Below, piece by piece: positions 1 through 6,353 of a stretch of 64,000 bases of DNA. Numbering within the stretch: position 1 is the stretch's first letter; each line of letters opens with the position of its first letter. A program made the translations under genes and the position numbers. This DNA comes from an uncultured Erythrobacter sp. (lineage in GTDB: Bacteria; Pseudomonadota; Alphaproteobacteria; Sphingomonadales; Sphingomonadaceae), in NCBI GenBank assembly GCA_947503155.1, contig CANNCL010000003.1, forward strand, positions 372,001 through 436,000, given 5' to 3'. The notes beneath the pieces are model-generated. The model worked only from the letters and a program-made list of their open reading frames with translations, was not told the DNA's origin and searched no databases.

Positions 1-1
1 T

Positions 2-33
2 TTGCAATTTGCAAGATGTTTTGCATTATGGGT
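2..33 (+). promoter_or_regulatory. LuxO-type upstream activator site
   Basis: Positions 2-14 read TTGCAATTTGCAA, which fits the palindromic LuxO box as I recall it from vibrios (TTGCA-WWW-TGCAA) at every position. A second left half-site (TTGCATTATG) follows at 21-30, 19 bp further on, so activator dimers could sit in tandem. The site lies about 90 bp upstream of the predicted sigma54 start point, a normal distance for an enhancer of this class. The regulator encoded at 657-2072 is LuxO-like, so autoregulation is the natural inference. Confidence 0.7.
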
Positions 34-91
34 CACTAGGGAGGCCAATTCAGGCCGTTTCGAGCCGCAAATTTCGGCACTCATCTTGCAA
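9..91. repeat. 10-bp inverted repeat flanking the control region
   Basis: TTGCAAGATG at 9-18 is repeated as its exact reverse complement CATCTTGCAA at 82-91, about 60 bp apart. The left arm overlaps the end of the LuxO-like box and the right arm contains the -12 element of the sigma54 promoter. The arms may simply be two regulator sites in opposite orientation, or may help loop the enhancer to the promoter. The function is inferred. Confidence 0.45.
75..90 (+). promoter_or_regulatory. sigma54 (-24/-12) promoter of the H-NOX operon
   Basis: CGGCAC at 75-80, five bases, then TTGCA at 86-90 matches the RpoN consensus TGGCAC-N5-TTGCW except for the first base. The invariant GG (76-77) and GC (88-89) have the required spacing. 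Transcription would start near 101, leaving a leader of about 25 nt with GGAG at 114-117 as ribosome binding site before the ATG at 127. RpoN is not universal in Sphingomonadales, so the host should be checked for rpoN. Confidence 0.75.
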
Positions 92-126
92 CATGCGAAA
101 CAAGGCAATTATCGGAGACGTGTCAA

Positions 127-657
127 ATGAAGGGTATTATTTACGCGGAGCTTATTGGCTTCCTTGATTCAAAAGGGGGCCCCGGCTTCACAGAAGAAGT
201 GCTTGCGGGCGCAGAACTGCCGCATGGCGGCGTATTCTCTCGTGTGTCGCTTTACCCGTGGGAACAAGCAGTCCAAGTGGTCACTTCCGCATCGCGGATA
301 AGCGGTGCCGACGCCAACGCCTTATGCGAAGAATTCGGGCAGTATCTGTTTGGCCGTTTTACAGTTTTGTACACGGAAATCGTCAACCGGTACCCGACTG
401 CCGAGAAGATGCTTGATCACGTCGAAGACCACATTCACGAAGAGGTGAAGGTGCTTTATCCCGACGCCGAACCTCCGCGGGTGTCAGCGCGAAGAGACGG
501 TGACGATTTTGTAGTCGAGTATGAATCTCATAGGCCGTTCGCTTTCATTGCCGCTGGCTTGGTTCGCGGTTGCATGAGCCACTTTGGCGATCCGCGGAAG
601 ATGGAATGGATCGATCCCGATCCTACCGGAAAAACTGCGCATTTCAGGATATATTGA
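127..657 (+). CDS. H-NOX haem nitric-oxide sensor protein
   Basis: Stand-alone haem-NO/oxygen-binding (H-NOX) domain of 176 residues, a normal length for the bacterial single-domain family. The MKG start, the helix carrying His104 followed by PPR (residues 117-119), and the haem-contacting Tyr-x-Ser-x-Arg motif (Y132, S134, R136) are all present, so His104 is the probable proximal haem ligand. Such proteins in proteobacteria usually sense NO in the cytoplasm and control a partner kinase or diguanylate cyclase. Here the gene follows a sigma54-type promoter, and its stop codon shares a base with the start of the LuxO-like regulator gene, so the two are translationally coupled. No histidine kinase is present in the window. 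Ligand preference cannot be judged by eye. Confidence 0.92.
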   Translation: MKGIIYAELIGFLDSKGGPGFTEEVLAGAELPHGGVFSRVSLYPWEQAVQVVTSASRISGADANALCEEFGQYLFGRFTVLYTEIVNRYPTAEKMLDHVEDHIHEEVKVLYPDAEPPRVSARRDGDDFVVEYESHRPFAFIAAGLVRGCMSHFGDPRKMEWIDPDPTGKTAHFRIY

Positions 658-2072
658 TGGATAGTGCACGGGTTCTTATCGTCGAAGACAGTGCGTCGCT
701 GGCGCTTGGTTATGCTGCTCAACTTGAGGATACGGGGCATGAGGTAATTCTGTGCGAAACCCTTGCAGAGGCGCGCCGCAGCCTTCTTGCTGAGACGTTT
801 GATGTCGTGCTTCTAGATTTGCAGTTGCCGGACGGAGACGGCTTGACCATTTTTGACGCTTTAGGGGACGCCGCCGGCAATCCGGGTGTCGTTGTTGTGA
901 CGGCAGACGGTTCGCTCAACCGCGCGATCGCTGCGATGCGGTTGGGCGCCTATGACTTCCTCGTAAAGCCGATTTCTGGCGCGCGATTGATCACGACGGT
1001 GGCTGCCGCTGCCCTACAGAGTGGGGGTGACAAGGGTTCCAAGCCAACACCGGAAAGAAGGGTTGAAGACAGCGAGAGCTTTCACGGCTTCATCGGCAAA
1101 TCGCAGCAGATGCAAGCGGTGTACCGCACGATTGAAAGTGTTGCGGATTCAAGAGCTACGGTTTTTGTCACTGGTGAAAGTGGGACCGGCAAAGAGGTGA
1201 CCGCGGAGGCGATACACGCCGAAAGCAAGCGTCGGAGCGGTCCATTTGTGGCAATCAATTGCGGTGCAATTCCGGAAAATTTGCTGGAATCAGAGTTGTT
1301 TGGCCACGTCAAAGGGGCGTTTACAGGCGCTGTAGAAAATAGGATCGGGTCGGCTAAAGCTGCAGACGGAGGAACGCTTTTTCTCGATGAAATCTGCGAA
1401 ATGGACCTCAAACTCCAGGTCAAATTGCTACGTTTTTTGCAGACCAGTATGATCCAGCGCGTTGGTTCTTCGACTGCTGAGCCTGTTAATGTGAGGATCG
1501 TGTGCGCGACCAATCGGGACCCTGAGCGCGAAGTTGCCGAAGGACGTTTCCGCGAAGATCTGTATTACCGCCTCAATGTTATTCCGATCTGGCTTCCTGC
1601 CTTGCGAGAGCGCGGAAATGATATTGAATTGATCGCGAAAAGCCTACTCGAACGGATTGCTGCTGAAGAAGGGCGCAAGGTTACGGGGTTCTCCAGAGCG
1701 AGTGCATCGTACCTGGCTGAGCATCAATGGCCAGGTAACGTGCGCGAACTGCAAAACGCGCTGCGCCGCGCGGTGATTACGGGAACCGGCAGCCAGCTTG
1801 ATCTTGTTGGTGCGCCTCGCGGTGCTCCGCGAACTGCGCTCATAGAGTCCAGAGCGCCTCTGACTCGGAATGATGTTGCACTTGTCAAACCCGAGGTCCT
1901 CACCAGTGATTCTGGCGCAATTGATTTCTCTGGAATGACCCTCGATCAGGTAGAGAGGATGGTAATTGAGCAAGCTATCTCGCGAACAACCGGTAATATT
2001 GTTCAGGCGGCAAAAGGCTTAGGAGTCAGCCCCTCGACCATCTATCGCAAATTGGAACGATGGTCCGACTAG
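657..2072 (+). CDS. LuxO-type sigma54-dependent response regulator
   Basis: The 471-residue protein has the three-domain NtrC layout. A receiver spans about residues 1-120, with acidic Asp11, phospho-acceptor Asp54 and a conserved Lys near 104. A sigma54-interacting AAA+ domain follows at about 145-370, with Walker A GESGTGKE and the sigma54 contact loop GAFTGA. A Fis-type helix-turn-helix occupies the last 45 residues. The AAA+ domain closely resembles Vibrio LuxO as I remember it (GFIG, YRTI, CATNRDP and FREDLYYRL stretches). The start at 657 is chosen because it overlaps the H-NOX stop and begins directly at the receiver; an upstream in-frame start at 570 would lie deep inside the H-NOX gene. 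It probably activates its own operon and possibly small RNAs or other genes elsewhere. Confidence 0.9.
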   Translation: MDSARVLIVEDSASLALGYAAQLEDTGHEVILCETLAEARRSLLAETFDVVLLDLQLPDGDGLTIFDALGDAAGNPGVVVVTADGSLNRAIAAMRLGAYDFLVKPISGARLITTVAAAALQSGGDKGSKPTPERRVEDSESFHGFIGKSQQMQAVYRTIESVADSRATVFVTGESGTGKEVTAEAIHAESKRRSGPFVAINCGAIPENLLESELFGHVKGAFTGAVENRIGSAKAADGGTLFLDEICEMDLKLQVKLLRFLQTSMIQRVGSSTAEPVNVRIVCATNRDPEREVAEGRFREDLYYRLNVIPIWLPALRERGNDIELIAKSLLERIAAEEGRKVTGFSRASASYLAEHQWPGNVRELQNALRRAVITGTGSQLDLVGAPRGAPRTALIESRAPLTRNDVALVKPEVLTSDSGAIDFSGMTLDQVERMVIEQAISRTTGNIVQAAKGLGVSPSTIYRKLERWSD

Positions 2073-2098
2073 CTAAATACACTTCGTATCCAAGCCTG

Positions 2099-2177
2099 CG
2101 TAGACGCGTCTACCAACCGTTCCCGTTGGAATCATAATCCGCGTGTCGGGGGTTCAAGTCCCTCCTCCGCTACCAAA
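2099..2177 (+). repeat. 79-bp direct repeat, left copy, with tRNA-Met 3' end
   Basis: This copy and the one at 6275-6353 differ by one base (c2122 against t6298). Bases 2131-2175 read as the 3' part of a CAU-anticodon tRNA: TCATAA of the anticodon loop, the 3' side of the anticodon stem, a 5-nt variable loop, a T arm with TTCAAGT loop, then CTCCGCT-A-CCA. The 5' part is not tRNA. It carries the palindrome GTAGACGCGTCTAC (2100-2113) and a CCAAC/GTTGG inverted repeat (2113-2129). It resembles a mobile-element attachment site made from a tRNA 3' end. Confidence 0.8.
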
Positions 2178-2241
2178 TTCATCTGGATGGAAGGCGCTAA
2201 GCTCTCGACGAGGGGCAAGGTTCTCGGCGCTAATCGGCGAT

Positions 2242-2769
2242 CTATGAGCCGCCTTGCAAAAGCAATGCCATGATCTTCTTCATCGCAGCAATTTCTGCTT
2301 CATTGATTGAGCGGTAGTATTCCACGATGGTCTCACCGATTGCGTCCATGCCTTCCCGGTCAAGACTCTCCGCCAGCTGCGTATCGGCAAATTCAAGACC
2401 AGAGATCGTTTTGGCGATCGCTGCGTGAGATTGCTCGGCTCCCAACAAAGGCGAAAAAATCAATCCAGCTATGCGCTCTGAATAGACAGATGCGCGCGAA
2501 GCAAGCGCGTCTTGAATGAGCTCTGCCATCTGGTCACGGCCGCTTGGAGTCAGCGCGTAGGATTTGCGCGGAGGGCCTTTGTCGCCCTCTTCAAGCTCGA
2601 CCGAAATCGCGCCATCGCGCTCCAGGTCTTTAAGCGTTTTGTAGATCGTCGACATGCCGATCTTGGCCCATTGGCGCATCTCTGTCCGCCGCGCGAAGCT
2701 CTCCATTTCGAAGCCATAGCGCAGGCCGGTCCCGATCAAGGCCAGCACGATCATCCGAGGTTTTTGCAT
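2242..2769 (-). CDS. PadR-family transcriptional regulator
   Basis: A winged-helix regulator of the PadR family. The N-terminal ~85 residues carry the recognisable core (IVLALIG, STIYKTLKDLERDGAI, PRKSYALTPSGRDQM), and the C-terminal helical part is typical of the longer PadR members that dimerise through it. I chose the ATG at 2769 because the family begins just before the IVLAL strand and GGAAG lies upstream; starts further out would run into the divergent gene. It is divergent from the DUF2306 gene across 89 bp, so it probably represses that gene and itself. The ligand is unknown. Confidence 0.85.
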   Translation of the reverse strand: MQKPRMIVLALIGTGLRYGFEMESFARRTEMRQWAKIGMSTIYKTLKDLERDGAISVELEEGDKGPPRKSYALTPSGRDQMAELIQDALASRASVYSERIAGLIFSPLLGAEQSHAAIAKTISGLEFADTQLAESLDREGMDAIGETIVEYYRSINEAEIAAMKKIMALLLQGGS

Positions 2770-2858
2770 CGCTTCCAGTCTGTCGCGCGCGTTGGCACAA
2801 AGGTAAAGACTTGACCAGTAGTCTATCATAGAATACATGGCTTGAAAAGGAGGCTGGC

Positions 2859-3407
2859 TTGTACCTTTCGTCAATCACTCAATATTGGGATGACCCGTTG
2901 ATGGCGGGCTTGCATGTCGTGTGCGCATTCGTCGCATTGGGCTGCGGATTGGTGGTTATCCTGCGCCGCAAGGGCGGCAAACGGCACAAGCAGATTGGCT
3001 ATGCCTACGTCGCCGCGATGCTCGCAGTGAACTTCAGCGCTCTTCTCCAGGCAGAAATCACTCTCTCTGACCCTTTCGTGATCGCGGCTTTGGTCAGTCT
3101 GACAACTGTCGCCGCGGCGATGGCCTGCGCTTTTCGTTTTCGCAGCACCCGCTCGCCTGGGATCCTCGCCGCCCACGGGACGATGATGGGATGGTCCTAT
3201 TTCGGGCTGCTTGCCGCAGGGCTGACTCAGTCGCTCACCGCTAGCGAGATCTATGCCTATGAGGGCTGGGCGCGGAACGAATACGGAGTCTACGCTCTGG
3301 TCACGCTTGCCGCGATCTGGACGATCTGGCACATCAATCGTGACACGAAATCATTGCGCATCGCTGCCCGCAAGATGGGCGAGCGGGCGCGTGTGGAGAA
3401 GGCCTGA
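2859..3407 (+). CDS. DUF2306-like membrane protein, TTG start
   Basis: The 182-residue protein has about four or five hydrophobic segments (residues near 15-35, 48-65, 70-90, 102-122 and 145-162), with conserved-looking HKQIGYAY and AAHGTMMGWSY stretches that recall DUF2306 predicted membrane proteins. The TTG at 2859 is preferred because AAAAGGAGG at 2845-2853 is an excellent ribosome binding site five bases upstream. It is divergently transcribed from the PadR gene, which likely controls it. No biochemical function is known for the family, and the family assignment itself is from memory. Confidence 0.7.
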   Translation: MYLSSITQYWDDPLMAGLHVVCAFVALGCGLVVILRRKGGKRHKQIGYAYVAAMLAVNFSALLQAEITLSDPFVIAALVSLTTVAAAMACAFRFRSTRSPGILAAHGTMMGWSYFGLLAAGLTQSLTASEIYAYEGWARNEYGVYALVTLAAIWTIWHINRDTKSLRIAARKMGERARVEKA

Positions 3408-3597
3408 TCCACCCGCTTCCTTTAAAGCACTGCCTCGTCAGTCCGCGCGGTTCTTCCTGGCTCTAGCCTCAGTTGACGTACTTCTGGTCAATCGCTTGAA
3501 AGCGCGGCTGAATGCGACGGTGTCCAAATATCTAGCCAGATAGGCGATCTCGCCGAGGGCGCCGTTGGAGCCCGTGATTTACTCAAGCGAGCGGGCA
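3408..3597. other. Intergenic stretch without a gene
   Basis: About 190 bp between the convergent DUF2306 and carbonic anhydrase genes. No ORF with a ribosome binding site, no clear terminator hairpin and no repeat was found. Confidence 0.5.
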
Positions 3598-4188
3598 CTA
3601 CCGGGGAGCCGGCCATGTGCCGGAGCGGCCCGCTGGCTCACGCTGGGTCCCAGGGCTTATGCGCAAGGGCTCTGGCGATGCAACGACCCGCGCCTTCCCA
3701 GTCTCGACATCGTATAATAGCCCTGACACGATTACCTGATCCGGGATCGTCGGATCTGCCCGCAGCTTCTCAATATCCGCCTTCAATGCATCAGCGTGAT
3801 CGTGGATCGCAATCTCCGCCACATCCACCCCGATCGACTTTCTCATGCCTTCTTGCAATTGCGGGTCCGCGAACCGCTCTGCCCCGCATTGCGTGTGTTG
3901 CATGAGGATGAGCTCAAACGACCCAGCACTTCCATCCTTGGACATCTTGGCCACCATGAATGCGAGCGCTGAGAGCTCTTTGCGGACCTGTTCGGTGACA
4001 CGCCCGCCATTGTTGCGGAACACCACTGCATCGCCGAGTTCCAGCCCAAGCACGTGCGCCGGATCAACGCGCGCGTCAACGCAAGTCAGGACGAAGGTTC
4101 GCAGCTTGGGCCCAAACGAGAAAAGCCTAGGATCGTAGTCCTTTGCAAACGTCTGATTGCGTTCGAGGATAAGATTACAGTTCGACAT
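3598..4188 (-). CDS. beta-class carbonic anhydrase
   Basis: Zinc enzyme expected to interconvert CO2 and bicarbonate in the cytoplasm. The beta-class ligands are visible as Cys36-x-Asp38-x-Arg40 (TCVDAR) and His98-x-x-Cys101 (HTQC), with the expected spacing of about 60 residues. The 196-residue length suits the shorter beta-CA clades. The start at 4188 has GAGGGA upstream; an in-frame ATG at 4215 would run into the preceding ORF. It lies 11 bp downstream of a 63-codon ORF on the same strand, so the two are probably one transcript. The C-terminal ~20 residues are Pro/Gly/Arg-rich and look less conserved. Confidence 0.88.
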   Translation of the reverse strand: MSNCNLILERNQTFAKDYDPRLFSFGPKLRTFVLTCVDARVDPAHVLGLELGDAVVFRNNGGRVTEQVRKELSALAFMVAKMSKDGSAGSFELILMQHTQCGAERFADPQLQEGMRKSIGVDVAEIAIHDHADALKADIEKLRADPTIPDQVIVSGLLYDVETGKARVVASPEPLRISPGTQREPAGRSGTWPAPR

Positions 4189-4199
4189 TGGATCGTCCC

Positions 4200-4391
4200 T
4201 CAATCTTGCTCGCACGCGCCTTGTTTCGCGGCGAGGAGTTGCACTTCGGCTTTGAGCAAGAGCAGCTCACGCTTCAGTATTGGCAGTTCTTCTCCGATGA
4301 TCTCCGCTTCAGTCATCTCCATTGCTTCGAGCGTTCGGTTCAATCGTGACCAGAAGCCGCCGCGAGGTGTTTCGTGTGATATGTCGTTCAT
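4200..4391 (-). CDS. small hypothetical protein (63 aa)
   Basis: Encodes an amphipathic, strongly charged helix-rich peptide (residues 20-55 are mostly Glu, Leu, Lys and Ala), perhaps a coiled coil. AAAGG precedes the ATG. It sits just upstream of the carbonic anhydrase gene on the same strand and is probably co-transcribed with it. I do not recognise a family; it could be a partner or leader peptide. Confidence 0.5.
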   Translation of the reverse strand: MNDISHETPRGGFWSRLNRTLEAMEMTEAEIIGEELPILKRELLLLKAEVQLLAAKQGACEQD

Positions 4392-4413
4392 AGATATGCC
4401 TTTTCAGGGGGTG

Positions 4414-4444
4414 CCGCCCGATGGTTAGGGGAACCATCGGGCGG
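4414..4444. terminator. Strong 13-bp hairpin (terminator or attenuator)
   Basis: CCGCCCGATGGTT at 4414-4426 pairs perfectly with 4432-4444 around a 5-nt loop. It lies 9 bp beyond the stop of the NmrA-like gene and 23 bp before the start of the small ORF, both on the minus strand. There is no T tract on either side, so it may be a transcript-stabilising or attenuating structure, not a classical intrinsic terminator. Confidence 0.6.
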
Positions 4445-4453
4445 TGCGGGGGA

Positions 4454-5507
4454 TCAGGATTGGGCTGCGACCAGCGTTATCTGGTCGCTCGTGGGTGGAG
4501 CAGGCTCGATGTTGATCTCAGCGCGCTCAGACGCTTCCATCCATCGCTGGCATTCATGCGCCAGCTTTGCATCAGCGATCATCGGGTAGCCGCGCTCGCG
4601 TTCCCACGCTTCCAGATCGAACGGTCGGGCGATCATCATCCGGAACAGCATCGCGAACGCGGCAGCTTTCGAACCGATCACGAAGCCCGGGTTCACCAGC
4701 GAGGGATTGGCGATGTATCGTCGCGCGGTATTCTCGAAGATTTCAGGGGGGCGGCCGGTCACTTGCTCGACGTGCTCGGTCGGTGCTGAGCGCGATTGCG
4801 GCCTTGTGAAAGTTCTGAAACGGCACGTCCTTGTAGCGCACGTTGCGGTCCAGAATCTTGGCGAAGACCGCCGCGACATCGTCAGGGCTCAGCAGTTCGG
4901 GCCCGGTCGGCCGATAGCTTCGACCGATGTGCGGAGCGGGATTTACCAAAGTGTGCGCGGCGACGCTGGCGATGTCTTCGTTTGACGGCGGAGCGTTCTT
5001 GCCATTGCCAAAGGGTGCCATCAGCTGTCCGAAGTGAACCACGGCCGGCAAGCCGAGAAAATACGGAAATGCAAACAAGCCGGGTGCCAGATGCACCACA
5101 TCAACCGAGGGCATCCAGCGATAGATATTGTGCGCGATCCAATGGCCGCGCTGGTGGATCGAAGGGTGAGATGGCGTCAGGTTCCACGCGCCCATCAGCG
5201 TAACCATCTCCAGCTTAGCTTCTTCGGCAGCGACCGCGAAGATCGTCGAATCGTAGATCGTATTGGGCGAGAAGGGCGGGTTGTGAAATGCGCGTTGGAC
5301 ACCCTTCAGCGCAAGTTCGAGATCCCGATAGTCGCGCAAATCGCCGATGAAGAGTTCAGCGCCAGCCTTCTCAAGAGCCGCAGCCCGGGCGTCGCGCGAG
5401 CGGACAAAGGCCCTTACGCTATGTCCGGTGCGAAGCAGTTCAATACACGCGGCCATGCCGACGTGTCCGGCAGCGCTGGTGACGAGGATTTTTGGTTTGA
5501 GCGACAT
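4454..5507 (-). pseudogene. NmrA-like NAD(P)-binding protein, frameshifted
   Basis: The first frame (5507 down to 4743) encodes a Rossmann-fold protein of the NmrA / atypical SDR group: ILVTSAAGHVG near the N-terminus, then FVRSRDARAAALEKAGAELFIGDLRD in two parts. The family-like C-terminal ~100 residues (EQVTGRPPEIFENTARRY onward) continue in another frame to 4454. The break falls at 4777-4784, where the + strand reads cggtcggt, a 4-bp tandem duplication. Removing one copy restores a continuous frame reading ALSTEHVEQ. It is therefore a recent frameshift, or an assembly error, in a gene of about 350 codons. It is divergent from the TetR gene, which probably controlled it. Confidence 0.85.
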
Positions 5508-5526
5508 GAGAGGGGGACTCCATTTG

Positions 5527-5567
5527 GATGATGCTTGTCATCTATTTAGATGTTCTCTATCATCTAA
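5527..5567. promoter_or_regulatory. TetR operator candidates over the tetR promoter
   Basis: Two inverted repeats lie between the divergent NmrA-like and TetR genes: GATGA-N6-TCATC at 5527-5542, and TTAGATG-N8-CATCTAA at 5546-5567. A sigma70-like promoter facing tetR overlaps both: TTGTCA at 5535-5540, a 17-bp spacer, TATCAT at 5558-5563. Binding of the TetR protein here would shut off tetR and probably the divergent gene. Confidence 0.72.
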
Positions 5568-5600
5568 GCTGTCAATAACATTTTTTTGAGGTCTCAAATC

Positions 5601-6164
5601 ATGGTGCGCAGATCGCAGTCAGAAAAGGCTGAAAGCCGAGCGAAAATCCTGGAATCAGCGGCGGGATTGATCCGTGCAAATGGGATTGAGACCACAGGGG
5701 TTTCCGAGGTCATGAAGTCCGCTGGCCTCACCCATGGCGGCTTCTATCGTCACTTTGATTCCAAGGATTCGCTGATCGCCGAAGCGATCTCCGCAGCCTT
5801 TGATTCAGGGCTCAGGATCTTCAGCGAGGATCATCCGGCGACCGCCGACGAGGTTGAAGAATATGTCGAGCAATACCTTTCAGGTGATCACATCGAAGGG
5901 CTCTTTGGTGCCTGCCCTATCCCCTTGTTAAGCGCAGATATTGCGCGTGGAAGCGATGAGTGGAAGGACGCCTTCGAGGAAGGAGTGGAGCGAACAGTCA
6001 CGAAACTCAGCGAAGGAATGGGGCAGACAGCCAAGGACGACTCCCTAGTGTTGCTGAGTGCGCTAGTCGGCGCGCTTGTGATTGCTCGTGGTGTGGGTGA
6101 AGGCCCGCTGCGCGATCAGGTTCTGCAAGTGGCGAAAGACAAGGTTCGTGGCCTTCTCCAGTGA
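5601..6164 (+). CDS. TetR/AcrR-family transcriptional regulator
   Basis: The 187-residue repressor has an N-terminal helix-turn-helix (ILESAAGLIRANGIETTGV through GLTHGGFYRHFDSKDSL, residues ~12-55) of the sub-group that has THGGFYRHF. The C-terminal domain is helical and would bind a ligand. The ATG at 5601 is chosen because GAGG lies nine bases upstream; an in-frame TTG at 5586 has no such signal. It is divergent from the NmrA-like oxidoreductase pseudogene and preceded by two inverted repeats over its own promoter, so it is probably autoregulated. The inducer is unknown. Confidence 0.9.
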   Translation: MVRRSQSEKAESRAKILESAAGLIRANGIETTGVSEVMKSAGLTHGGFYRHFDSKDSLIAEAISAAFDSGLRIFSEDHPATADEVEEYVEQYLSGDHIEGLFGACPIPLLSADIARGSDEWKDAFEEGVERTVTKLSEGMGQTAKDDSLVLLSALVGALVIARGVGEGPLRDQVLQVAKDKVRGLLQ

Positions 6165-6274: not shown

Positions 6275-6353
6275 CGTAGACGCGTCTACCAACCGTTTCC
6301 GTTGGAATCATAATCCGCGTGTCGGGGGTTCAAGTCCCTCCTCCGCTACCAAA
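6275..6353 (+). repeat. 79-bp direct repeat, right copy, with tRNA-Met 3' end
   Basis: Second copy of the repeat at 2099-2177, same orientation, one mismatch. The tRNA-like part is 6307-6351 and ends in CCA; the palindrome GTAGACGCGTCTAC is at 6276-6289. The two copies enclose about 4.1 kb of accessory genes without an integrase. Because both copies have the same non-tRNA 5' part, neither is a functional tRNA gene. Confidence 0.8.

Follow-up and report, generated by a model that had tools for sequence, protein, structure and literature searches.

Signalling pathways that start from the haem protein H-NOX have been described chiefly in vibrios, in Shewanella and in a few other bacteria, and their outputs are mostly cyclic di-GMP or quorum sensing. 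Here we analyse a stretch of 64,000 nucleotides (the window) from an uncultured Erythrobacter sp. (GCA_947503155.1, genome size 3.14 Mb), which covers positions 372001-436000 of contig CANNCL010000003.1 (C3 in the following). At its left end lie hnoX, coding for a predicted H-NOX sensor of nitric oxide (NO), and a gene for a LuxO-like, sigma54-dependent response regulator; the closest named relatives of this locus returned by a relatives search are Erythrobacter. In the excerpts of the cited papers on which our comparison draws, the closest working parallel is the HnoX-HahK-SypF/LuxU-SypG-syp circuit of Vibrio fischeri (PMC12369376, PMC10162802), which likewise combines an H-NOX NO sensor, a kinase, an Hpt relay, a LuxO-like sigma54 regulator and a polysaccharide export target (in our case predicted from the genes). 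In V. fischeri, however, hnoX forms an operon with the kinase gene hahK and not with the regulator gene, and the published SypG site is TTCTCANNNTGMDWN (PMC10162802), whereas the Erythrobacter locus has a LuxO-type palindrome and, unlike V. fischeri, holds sensor, relay, regulator and polysaccharide genes in one block. The H-NOX-HqsK-LuxU-LuxO-Qrr quorum circuit of Vibrio harveyi (PMC6769237) shares the order H-NOX, kinase, Hpt, LuxO-type sigma54 activator and the same DNA site; its output consists of Qrr small RNAs and quorum sensing, whereas here polysaccharide genes are the likely output and the stretches searched gave no small RNA. In the Hno/HnoC system of Shewanella oneidensis (PMC12471899, PMC8738867) an H-NOX/kinase pathway also acts on a regulator that controls the hno genes in a feedback loop, but HnoC is a repressor that leaves DNA on phosphorylation, whereas the regulator described here is of the activator type, with GAFTGA and -24/-12 sites. 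No report that deals with H-NOX in sphingomonads together with LuxO, sigma54 or polysaccharide genes was present among the open-licence literature matches listed, in line with the initial annotation of the window, which had called this a circuit outside the vibrios not known from the literature. Nitric oxide, HNOX and sigma54 all go unmentioned in the excerpted part of a Sphingomonas exopolysaccharide screen (PMC11340318).

We propose, with a probability of about three in four, that a horizontally spread module for making and exporting polysaccharide has hnoX and the regulator gene as its control end and is controlled by NO through a relay of two kinase-type proteins (HK1 and HK2) and a set of DNA boxes. 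H-NOX would bind NO on its haem and alter the activity of HK1. Phosphate would pass from HK1 to the REC and then the Hpt domain of HK2, and from there to the LuxO-like regulator, at Asp54. In its phosphorylated form, the regulator would bind TTGCA-N3-TGCAA boxes in the wza/hnoX and wecG/wzx gaps and drive sigma54 RNA polymerase at -24/-12 elements, rightward into hnoX-luxO (autoregulation), leftward into wza-wzz-wzy, and in the second gap into wecG and into the wzx-glycosyltransferase genes; we infer both the flow of phosphate and the binding of the regulator to the boxes. On the analogy of the vibrio circuits, NO would most likely shut the kinase and lower polysaccharide output. The proposal is built on features read from genome sequences: which genes are present and how they are linked, the conserved boxes and promoter-like elements, the co-occurrence of H-NOX and regulator, and a single natural case of joint loss.

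The hnoX product (176 aa) matches PF07700 (HNOB) with 90.4 bits, above the curated cut-off of 25.5, and belongs to the H-NOX family by this domain test; its best solved relative is 6ocv (E 2.8e-20). His102 and Tyr132-x-Ser134-x-Arg136, which we take to be the proximal haem histidine and the YxSxR motif, are invariant in 30 aligned H-NOX sequences, this one included. The distal-pocket position holds Ile141, presumably at the place where O2-binding H-NOX proteins carry a tyrosine. Being non-polar, this residue argues against O2 binding. The predicted ligand of the haem is NO. The consulted part of the literature describes the distal tyrosine as needed for O2 binding by H-NOX (PMC8738867). As the initial annotation had reported, hnoX overlaps the regulator gene by one base, its stop codon TGA and the following ATG having A657 in common.

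The regulator (471 aa) consists of a receiver, a sigma54-AAA+ domain with GAFTGA and a Fis-type helix-turn-helix (HTH), the composition of Group I bacterial enhancer-binding proteins. The sigma54 gene itself, rpoN, on whose presence the initial annotation had made its circuit depend, was found at C1:436878, on another contig (224 bits). Asp54 is invariant in this protein and 19 aligned orthologs (a set that leaves aside the genome G204, see below), which points to phosphorylation. The receiver and AAA+ parts are closest to the solved LuxO structure 5ep0 (E 6e-117). Against the Vibrio LuxO equivalog NF041946, however, the protein reaches 525.5 bits, below the curated cut-off of 800. This cut-off was passed in 8 of 398 genomes of the phylum, all of one genus (g203, family f53); 39 of the 398, these 8 among them, pass the LuxO model at E 1e-140, so LuxO-like proteins are more widespread than the vibrios. 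A tree was made from 57 of 93 regulators. The sphingomonads among them had been reduced to 23, of which 18 were drawn at random and 5 selected; incomplete or disrupted sequences had been excluded beforehand, and a long-branch warning was given for the paralogs of the Erythrobacter genome itself. Sphingomonad regulators and two gammaproteobacterial ones form one clade (100/99), and the 8 sequences above the cut-off, taken as Vibrio LuxO because they pass NF041946, form another (100/100). Hence the description of the protein as LuxO-like holds in the sense of a LuxO-like sigma54 activator, and its assignment to LuxO as an ortholog is ruled out by score and by clade. Two second regulators in the tree (L307 and L308) may, we assume, be SypG-like.

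Reading C3:353001-372200 (L021) showed that the control region is common to two sides, since wza and genes labelled Wzz-like and Wzy-like diverge from hnoX; the latter two labels come from position and weak or no family matches. The hnoX and luxO-like genes thus seem to be the control end of a polysaccharide gene cluster of about 16 kb with its own kinases, and this cluster is probably the main target of the regulator. Genes for H-NOX, kinase, Hpt, the sigma54 regulator and polysaccharide export are all in the genome together with rpoN, and all but rpoN lie within C3:358647-374072. The named-loci sample consists of the best 80 of 140 relatives; in 59 of these 80 loci hnoX is immediately followed by the regulator gene, and a divergent wza accompanies 46 of the 59. 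In the remaining 13 no divergent wza was seen; some of these lie on short contigs, or the cluster is elsewhere.

The box and promoter motifs, each alone within the window, are weak evidence: GGCACN5TTGCA occurs once (0.30 expected, and present in 27 of 100 shuffles), and boxes with at most one mismatch occur five times (3.7 expected). They were judged real because of the comparison across relatives. The published LuxO site is TTGCAWWWTGCAA (PMC10162802, in the part consulted). We searched 48 wza/hnoX gaps, namely those of 47 named loci with a divergent wza within 700 bp and our own, for exact (TTGCA-N3-TGCAA) and relaxed (T[TC]GCA-N3-TGC[AG]A) boxes, with 200 dinucleotide shuffles as the null model. 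These gaps hold 36 exact boxes spread over 25 gaps (shuffle mean 0.17, maximum 2) and 73 relaxed boxes in 41 gaps (shuffle mean 0.41). GGCAY-N5-YTGC lies within 130 bp of hnoX in 38 of the 48 (shuffle mean 0.3, maximum 3), and an element toward wza, with TTGC, TTGA or TTGG accepted at -12, is present in 42 (shuffle mean 0.74). The second gap behaves in a similar way: 42 wecG/wzx gaps contain 10 exact boxes (in 9 gaps) and 36 relaxed ones (in 28), against shuffle means of 0.13 and 0.32, as well as TTGC/TTGA elements toward wzx in 36 (shuffle mean 0.29) and toward wecG in 26 (0.4). Exact boxes number 44 in the 27,736 bases of these two polysaccharide gaps and 11 in the other 1,039,268 bases of these loci, a density about 150 times higher in the gaps. 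Sixteen of 31 inter-box spacings measure 22-23 bp and five measure 43-44 bp, about two and four helix turns. In the gaps as in the Erythrobacter genome, LuxO-type sites stand upstream of -24/-12-type elements. Both the LuxO-type site at 2-14 and the -24/-12 promoter at 75-90, placed there by the initial annotation, are thus backed by these comparisons. The self-activating loop that it read into them is possible, site and promoter being real sequence features.

Across the whole Erythrobacter genome, 10 exact and 20 relaxed boxes were counted against 0 and 8 for a reversed control, and TGGCAYN5TTGC, a pattern that excludes the hnoX promoter (CGGCAC), occurs 18 times against 6 for its own control. 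Compared by eye, the two lie within 250 bp of each other at two places only, the wecG/wzx gap and upstream of a DUF885-like gene. The predicted regulon is thus mostly local. The remaining exact boxes (L011-L013, L018-L020) have no TGGCAYN5TTGC within 250 bp; under a looser score, partial matches are listed close to them. Before the DUF885-like gene, presumably coding for a peptidase, TGGCATGCAAGTTGC (L022:7924-7961, C3:516924-516961) is overlapped by three box-like repeats of a 7-base unit. As a target, these boxes (C3:516935-516961) were set aside as probably incidental, since the 7-bp tandem repeat runs over the promoter itself. The small RNAs that, in the view of the initial annotation, pairs of box and -24/-12 element might reveal did not appear: no Rfam match to a Qrr-like or other small RNA was obtained in L014, L015, L022 or window positions 1-6000.

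The initial annotation had held that sensor and regulator are directly coupled, and had advised a look left of the window for a hybrid kinase and an Hpt gene. The histidine kinase HK1 and the HisKA-REC-Hpt protein HK2 are encoded there, at C3:358647-361815, at the far end of the polysaccharide cluster, about 12-15 kb from hnoX-luxO. The wecG flank was retrieved for 26 relatives: in 24 of them wecG has a relative of the kinase or Hpt gene as its neighbour, in G236 such a gene is separated from wecG by hnoX, and G204 has none. Among the 80 named loci, 7 (L135, L152, L159, L161, L170, L177, L178) carry such a gene upstream of hnoX at a distance of at most 500 bp. H-NOX would act directly on the regulator if its NO-bound form contacted the receiver or AAA+ domain and gated sigma54 activation without a kinase. 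The adjacency and overlap of the two genes and the distance to the kinases fit such contact, as does the lack of both H-NOX and the phospho-acceptor in G204. The recurrent kinase/Hpt genes and the invariant Asp54 speak against it, as do the consulted accounts of vibrios, in which H-NOX acts on kinases, and we regard this explanation as highly improbable. Direct coupling was therefore set aside; sensor and regulator are probably linked by a kinase/Hpt relay as in vibrios. In its domain make-up, HK2 looks like a degenerating kinase turned phosphorelay protein. The stretch between HisKA and receiver measures about 165 residues in L212 and L213 and about 30 in our HK2, L203 and L204. H-NOX, kinase and regulator genes are close together in L200 and L294; in L294 (G686, from another family of the order) they make up a single run, and hnoX is preceded by an exact box.

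The distribution was examined in 397 genomes of the family, taking as strong an H-NOX match of E 1.4e-28 or better (a threshold set by eye), and E up to 1e-130 for the regulator and up to 1e-40 for Wza. H-NOX matched in 55 genomes (39 strong), the regulator in 36 and Wza in 33. Strong H-NOX and regulator occur together in 35 genomes, H-NOX alone in 4, the regulator alone in 1 and neither in 357, counts that ignore relatedness. The H-NOX-only genomes are G023, with a regulator under the threshold, G036, and two in which the genes look decayed or split, G130 and G211. In G211 (Citromicrobium bathyomarinum IOP_28; L090/L188) hnoX and the regulator gene are both split, and in G130 (L092) the block looks decayed.

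The regulator-only genome, G204, has no H-NOX match genome-wide, and its regulator (L221) has Ala in place of Asp54. No kinase was found beside wecG, the rest of the genome not being searched for kinases, and no -24/-12 element toward the regulator gene in the scanned stretch. Both gaps of G204 still have an exact box, and its polysaccharide genes and wza element are likewise retained. In this single case the input parts seem to be missing together and the output parts kept, as expected of one pathway. The retention of polysaccharide genes without H-NOX would also suit another signal (redox, light or surface) which, sensed by PAS domains of HK1 and HK2, would dominate, with H-NOX a minor modulator or an oxygen/redox sensor and NO not the physiological input. 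Weak PAS_3 matches are in fact present in both of our kinases, below the cut-off, and above it in HK2 of L213. On the other hand, G204 lacks H-NOX, the kinases beside wecG and the phospho-acceptor together, H-NOX and regulator keep company in 35 genomes against 5 with one alone, and the non-polar residue at the presumed distal-pocket position speaks against O2 binding. A dominant PAS-borne signal is thus rather unlikely.

Several observations weigh against the NO-controlled polysaccharide module. Of the 48 wza/hnoX gaps, 10 showed no -24/-12 element toward hnoX, 23 no exact box and 7 no relaxed one. The element toward wza has TTGC at -12 in only 8 of 42 gaps, with mostly TTGA or TTGG otherwise, and our own wzx element has TTGA; because -12 departs from TTGC, sigma54 use is less certain at the wza and wzx elements than at hnoX. 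Moreover, the 13 loci without a divergent wza keep relaxed boxes in 8 cases and the promoter element before hnoX in 9, so polysaccharide need not be the sole output. The 34 of 42 departures at the wza -12 and the boxes of these 8 loci would both be expected if the regulator mainly controlled its own operon, with the polysaccharide genes on a housekeeping promoter and the gap boxes serving hnoX-luxO alone. This we consider very unlikely in view of the second set of boxes and elements in the wecG/wzx gap, away from hnoX-luxO, and of G204, which retains boxes and the wza element though hnoX is gone. Further points against the module concern the relay. The Hpt match of our HK2 reaches 17.7 bits against a cut-off of 24.6 (it is above the cut-off in 3 of 4 relatives tested), and HK1 shows no testable feature typical of an H-NOX partner kinase. 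No ATPase domain is recognisable in HK2 of the Erythrobacter genome or of four relatives (L203, L204, L212, L213), so HK1 would have to supply it; the entry of phosphate into the relay is a step that we infer. The neglect of relatedness in the co-occurrence counts and the restriction of the kinase search in G204 to the wecG side belong here too.

Table 1. Features of the locus. Positions without prefix are those of the window; C3 positions are those of the contig; L021 is the flanking stretch C3:353001-372200.
Feature	Position	Strand	Basis and remarks
HK1 histidine kinase, HisKA + HATPase	C3:358647-360164		Domain search; adjoins the wecG region
HK2, HisKA + REC + weak Hpt	C3:360127-361815 (L021:7127-8815)		Domain search; beside wecG
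wecG fused to sugar-phosphate transferase	Past the glycosyltransferase genes	minus	Glyco_tran_WecG + Bac_transf
wzx and three glycosyltransferase genes	Beyond the Wzy-like gene	plus	Polysacc_synt_3, Glycos_transf_2, Glyco_trans_1_4
wza	C3:370629-371906	minus	Poly_export
Putative LuxO/SypG-type upstream activator site TTGCAATTTGCAA	2-14	.	Perfect match to the published LuxO site; gap common to hnoX-luxO and wza-wzz-wzy
Degenerate second site TTGCATTATGGGT	21-33	.	By eye, weak; one half-site good
Predicted -24/-12 sigma54 promoter of hnoX-luxO, CGGCAC-N5-TTGCA	75-90	+	Pattern and comparison
Near-perfect box TTGCAACATGCGA	86-98	.	Box scan; overlaps the -12 element
hnoX, predicted haem NO-binding sensor	127-657	+	PF07700, conserved haem motif
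luxO-like sigma54-dependent response regulator gene	657-2072	+	Receiver Asp54, AAA+ GAFTGA, HTH ending SPSTIYRK
Displaced 3' part of tRNA-Met with 5' arm	2099-2177	+	Directly after luxO
tRNA-Met fragment copy, 95%	C3:358402-358482		Directly before HK1, at the other module end
tRNA-Met fragment copy, 99%	6275-6353	+	Bounds the next cassette of the array

Two further sites in the control region are less clear. The one at 21-33 is more than two mismatches from the box in a pattern scan; by eye, its stretch TTTTGCATTATGGGTCA is also found in the nearest relative (G180). The box at 86-98 may be due to chance or possibly be an autorepression site, and among the 48 wza/hnoX gaps relaxed boxes near this position were seen only in our own, L123, L129 and L157.

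The module lies between tRNA-Met 3'-end repeats, which suggests an island. An intact tRNA-Met gene (C3:339870-339946) and six pieces of it, at about 341.1, 342.5, 347.7, 358.4, 374.1 and 378.3 kb, all point in one direction, and the copies at 358.4 and 374.1 kb closely flank the stretch from HK1 to luxO. The array as a whole (C3:339870-378353, 38 kb) appears as tandem cassettes, and three partial copies have in common an arm with GTAGACGCGTCTA(C/T). The tRNA-Met 3' fragment also comes after the regulator gene in L122, which is among the two nearest named relatives. Furthermore, 9 of 57 named loci (3 of the 57 with slightly less than 1 kb of downstream sequence) carry an intact gene for a tRNA (Ser, Met, Lys, Val or His) no more than 1 kb past luxO, its 3' end toward luxO every time; the tRNA density farther away (2 in 344,404 bases) would predict 0.33. 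In the excerpts consulted, tRNA islands and tycheposons (PMC10872708) likewise have cargo bounded by tRNA 3'-end repeats, with tRNA-Met at the border, but they differ in that no tyrosine integrase gene lies inside the array described here. Of 10 PF00589 matches in the genome (9 over the cut-off), none falls within C3:339870-378353, which counts against the island and rules out its filing as a tycheposon. A cassette bounded by partial tRNA repeats was found in the Erythrobacter genome only, and no direct repeat of more than 22 bases flanks the module in 16 pairs of flanks from other genomes (17 listed; G032 is without an HK1 match). Insertion as an island is thus likely in this genome and unproven in general.

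The presence of the module is patchy, as only 2 of 11 same-genus genomes listed carry H-NOX and regulator. The block is also found in a Salinisphaera metagenome-assembled genome and in Kushneria phyllosphaerae (L179, L180), whose regulators nest in the sphingomonad clade beside Novosphingobium beihaiensis (99/99), and this nesting points to transfer into gammaproteobacteria. The module therefore seems to be scattered among marine sphingomonads and to have moved between species. A wider proposal, which we put forward tentatively and hold to be somewhat less probable than its converse, is that a self-contained NO-to-polysaccharide switch, made up of sensor, kinase, Hpt relay, sigma54 activator with its DNA sites and the complete Wzx/Wzy-type biosynthesis set, is passed on as a single tRNA-targeted cassette between sphingomonads and also to gammaproteobacteria. 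It would carry its regulation along, the host supplying only sigma54, and the LuxO-type relay would then be a mobile biofilm switch of older date, from which quorum sensing in vibrios is one derived application.

The locus represents a compact arrangement, widely kept in marine sphingomonads: one control region serves both the polysaccharide genes and the pair of NO sensor and LuxO-like regulator that probably governs them. It is a candidate case of NO-controlled matrix production outside the vibrios, extends the use of LuxO/SypG-type regulators and sites to Alphaproteobacteria and suggests that an NO switch of this kind can be inherited as a block. Carriers include Erythrobacter sp. NAP1, which we take to be an aerobic anoxygenic phototroph, and Citromicrobium sp. 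JLT1363; in Qipengyuania flava the kinase genes immediately precede hnoX, and no polysaccharide genes were seen next to it. In four Novosphingobium loci (L183, L184, L185, L190) a tandem pair of H-NOX genes was observed near kinase genes; the same polysaccharide cluster comes next in L183 and L184, wecG lies at the end of L190 and a LuxO-like gene is present in L185.

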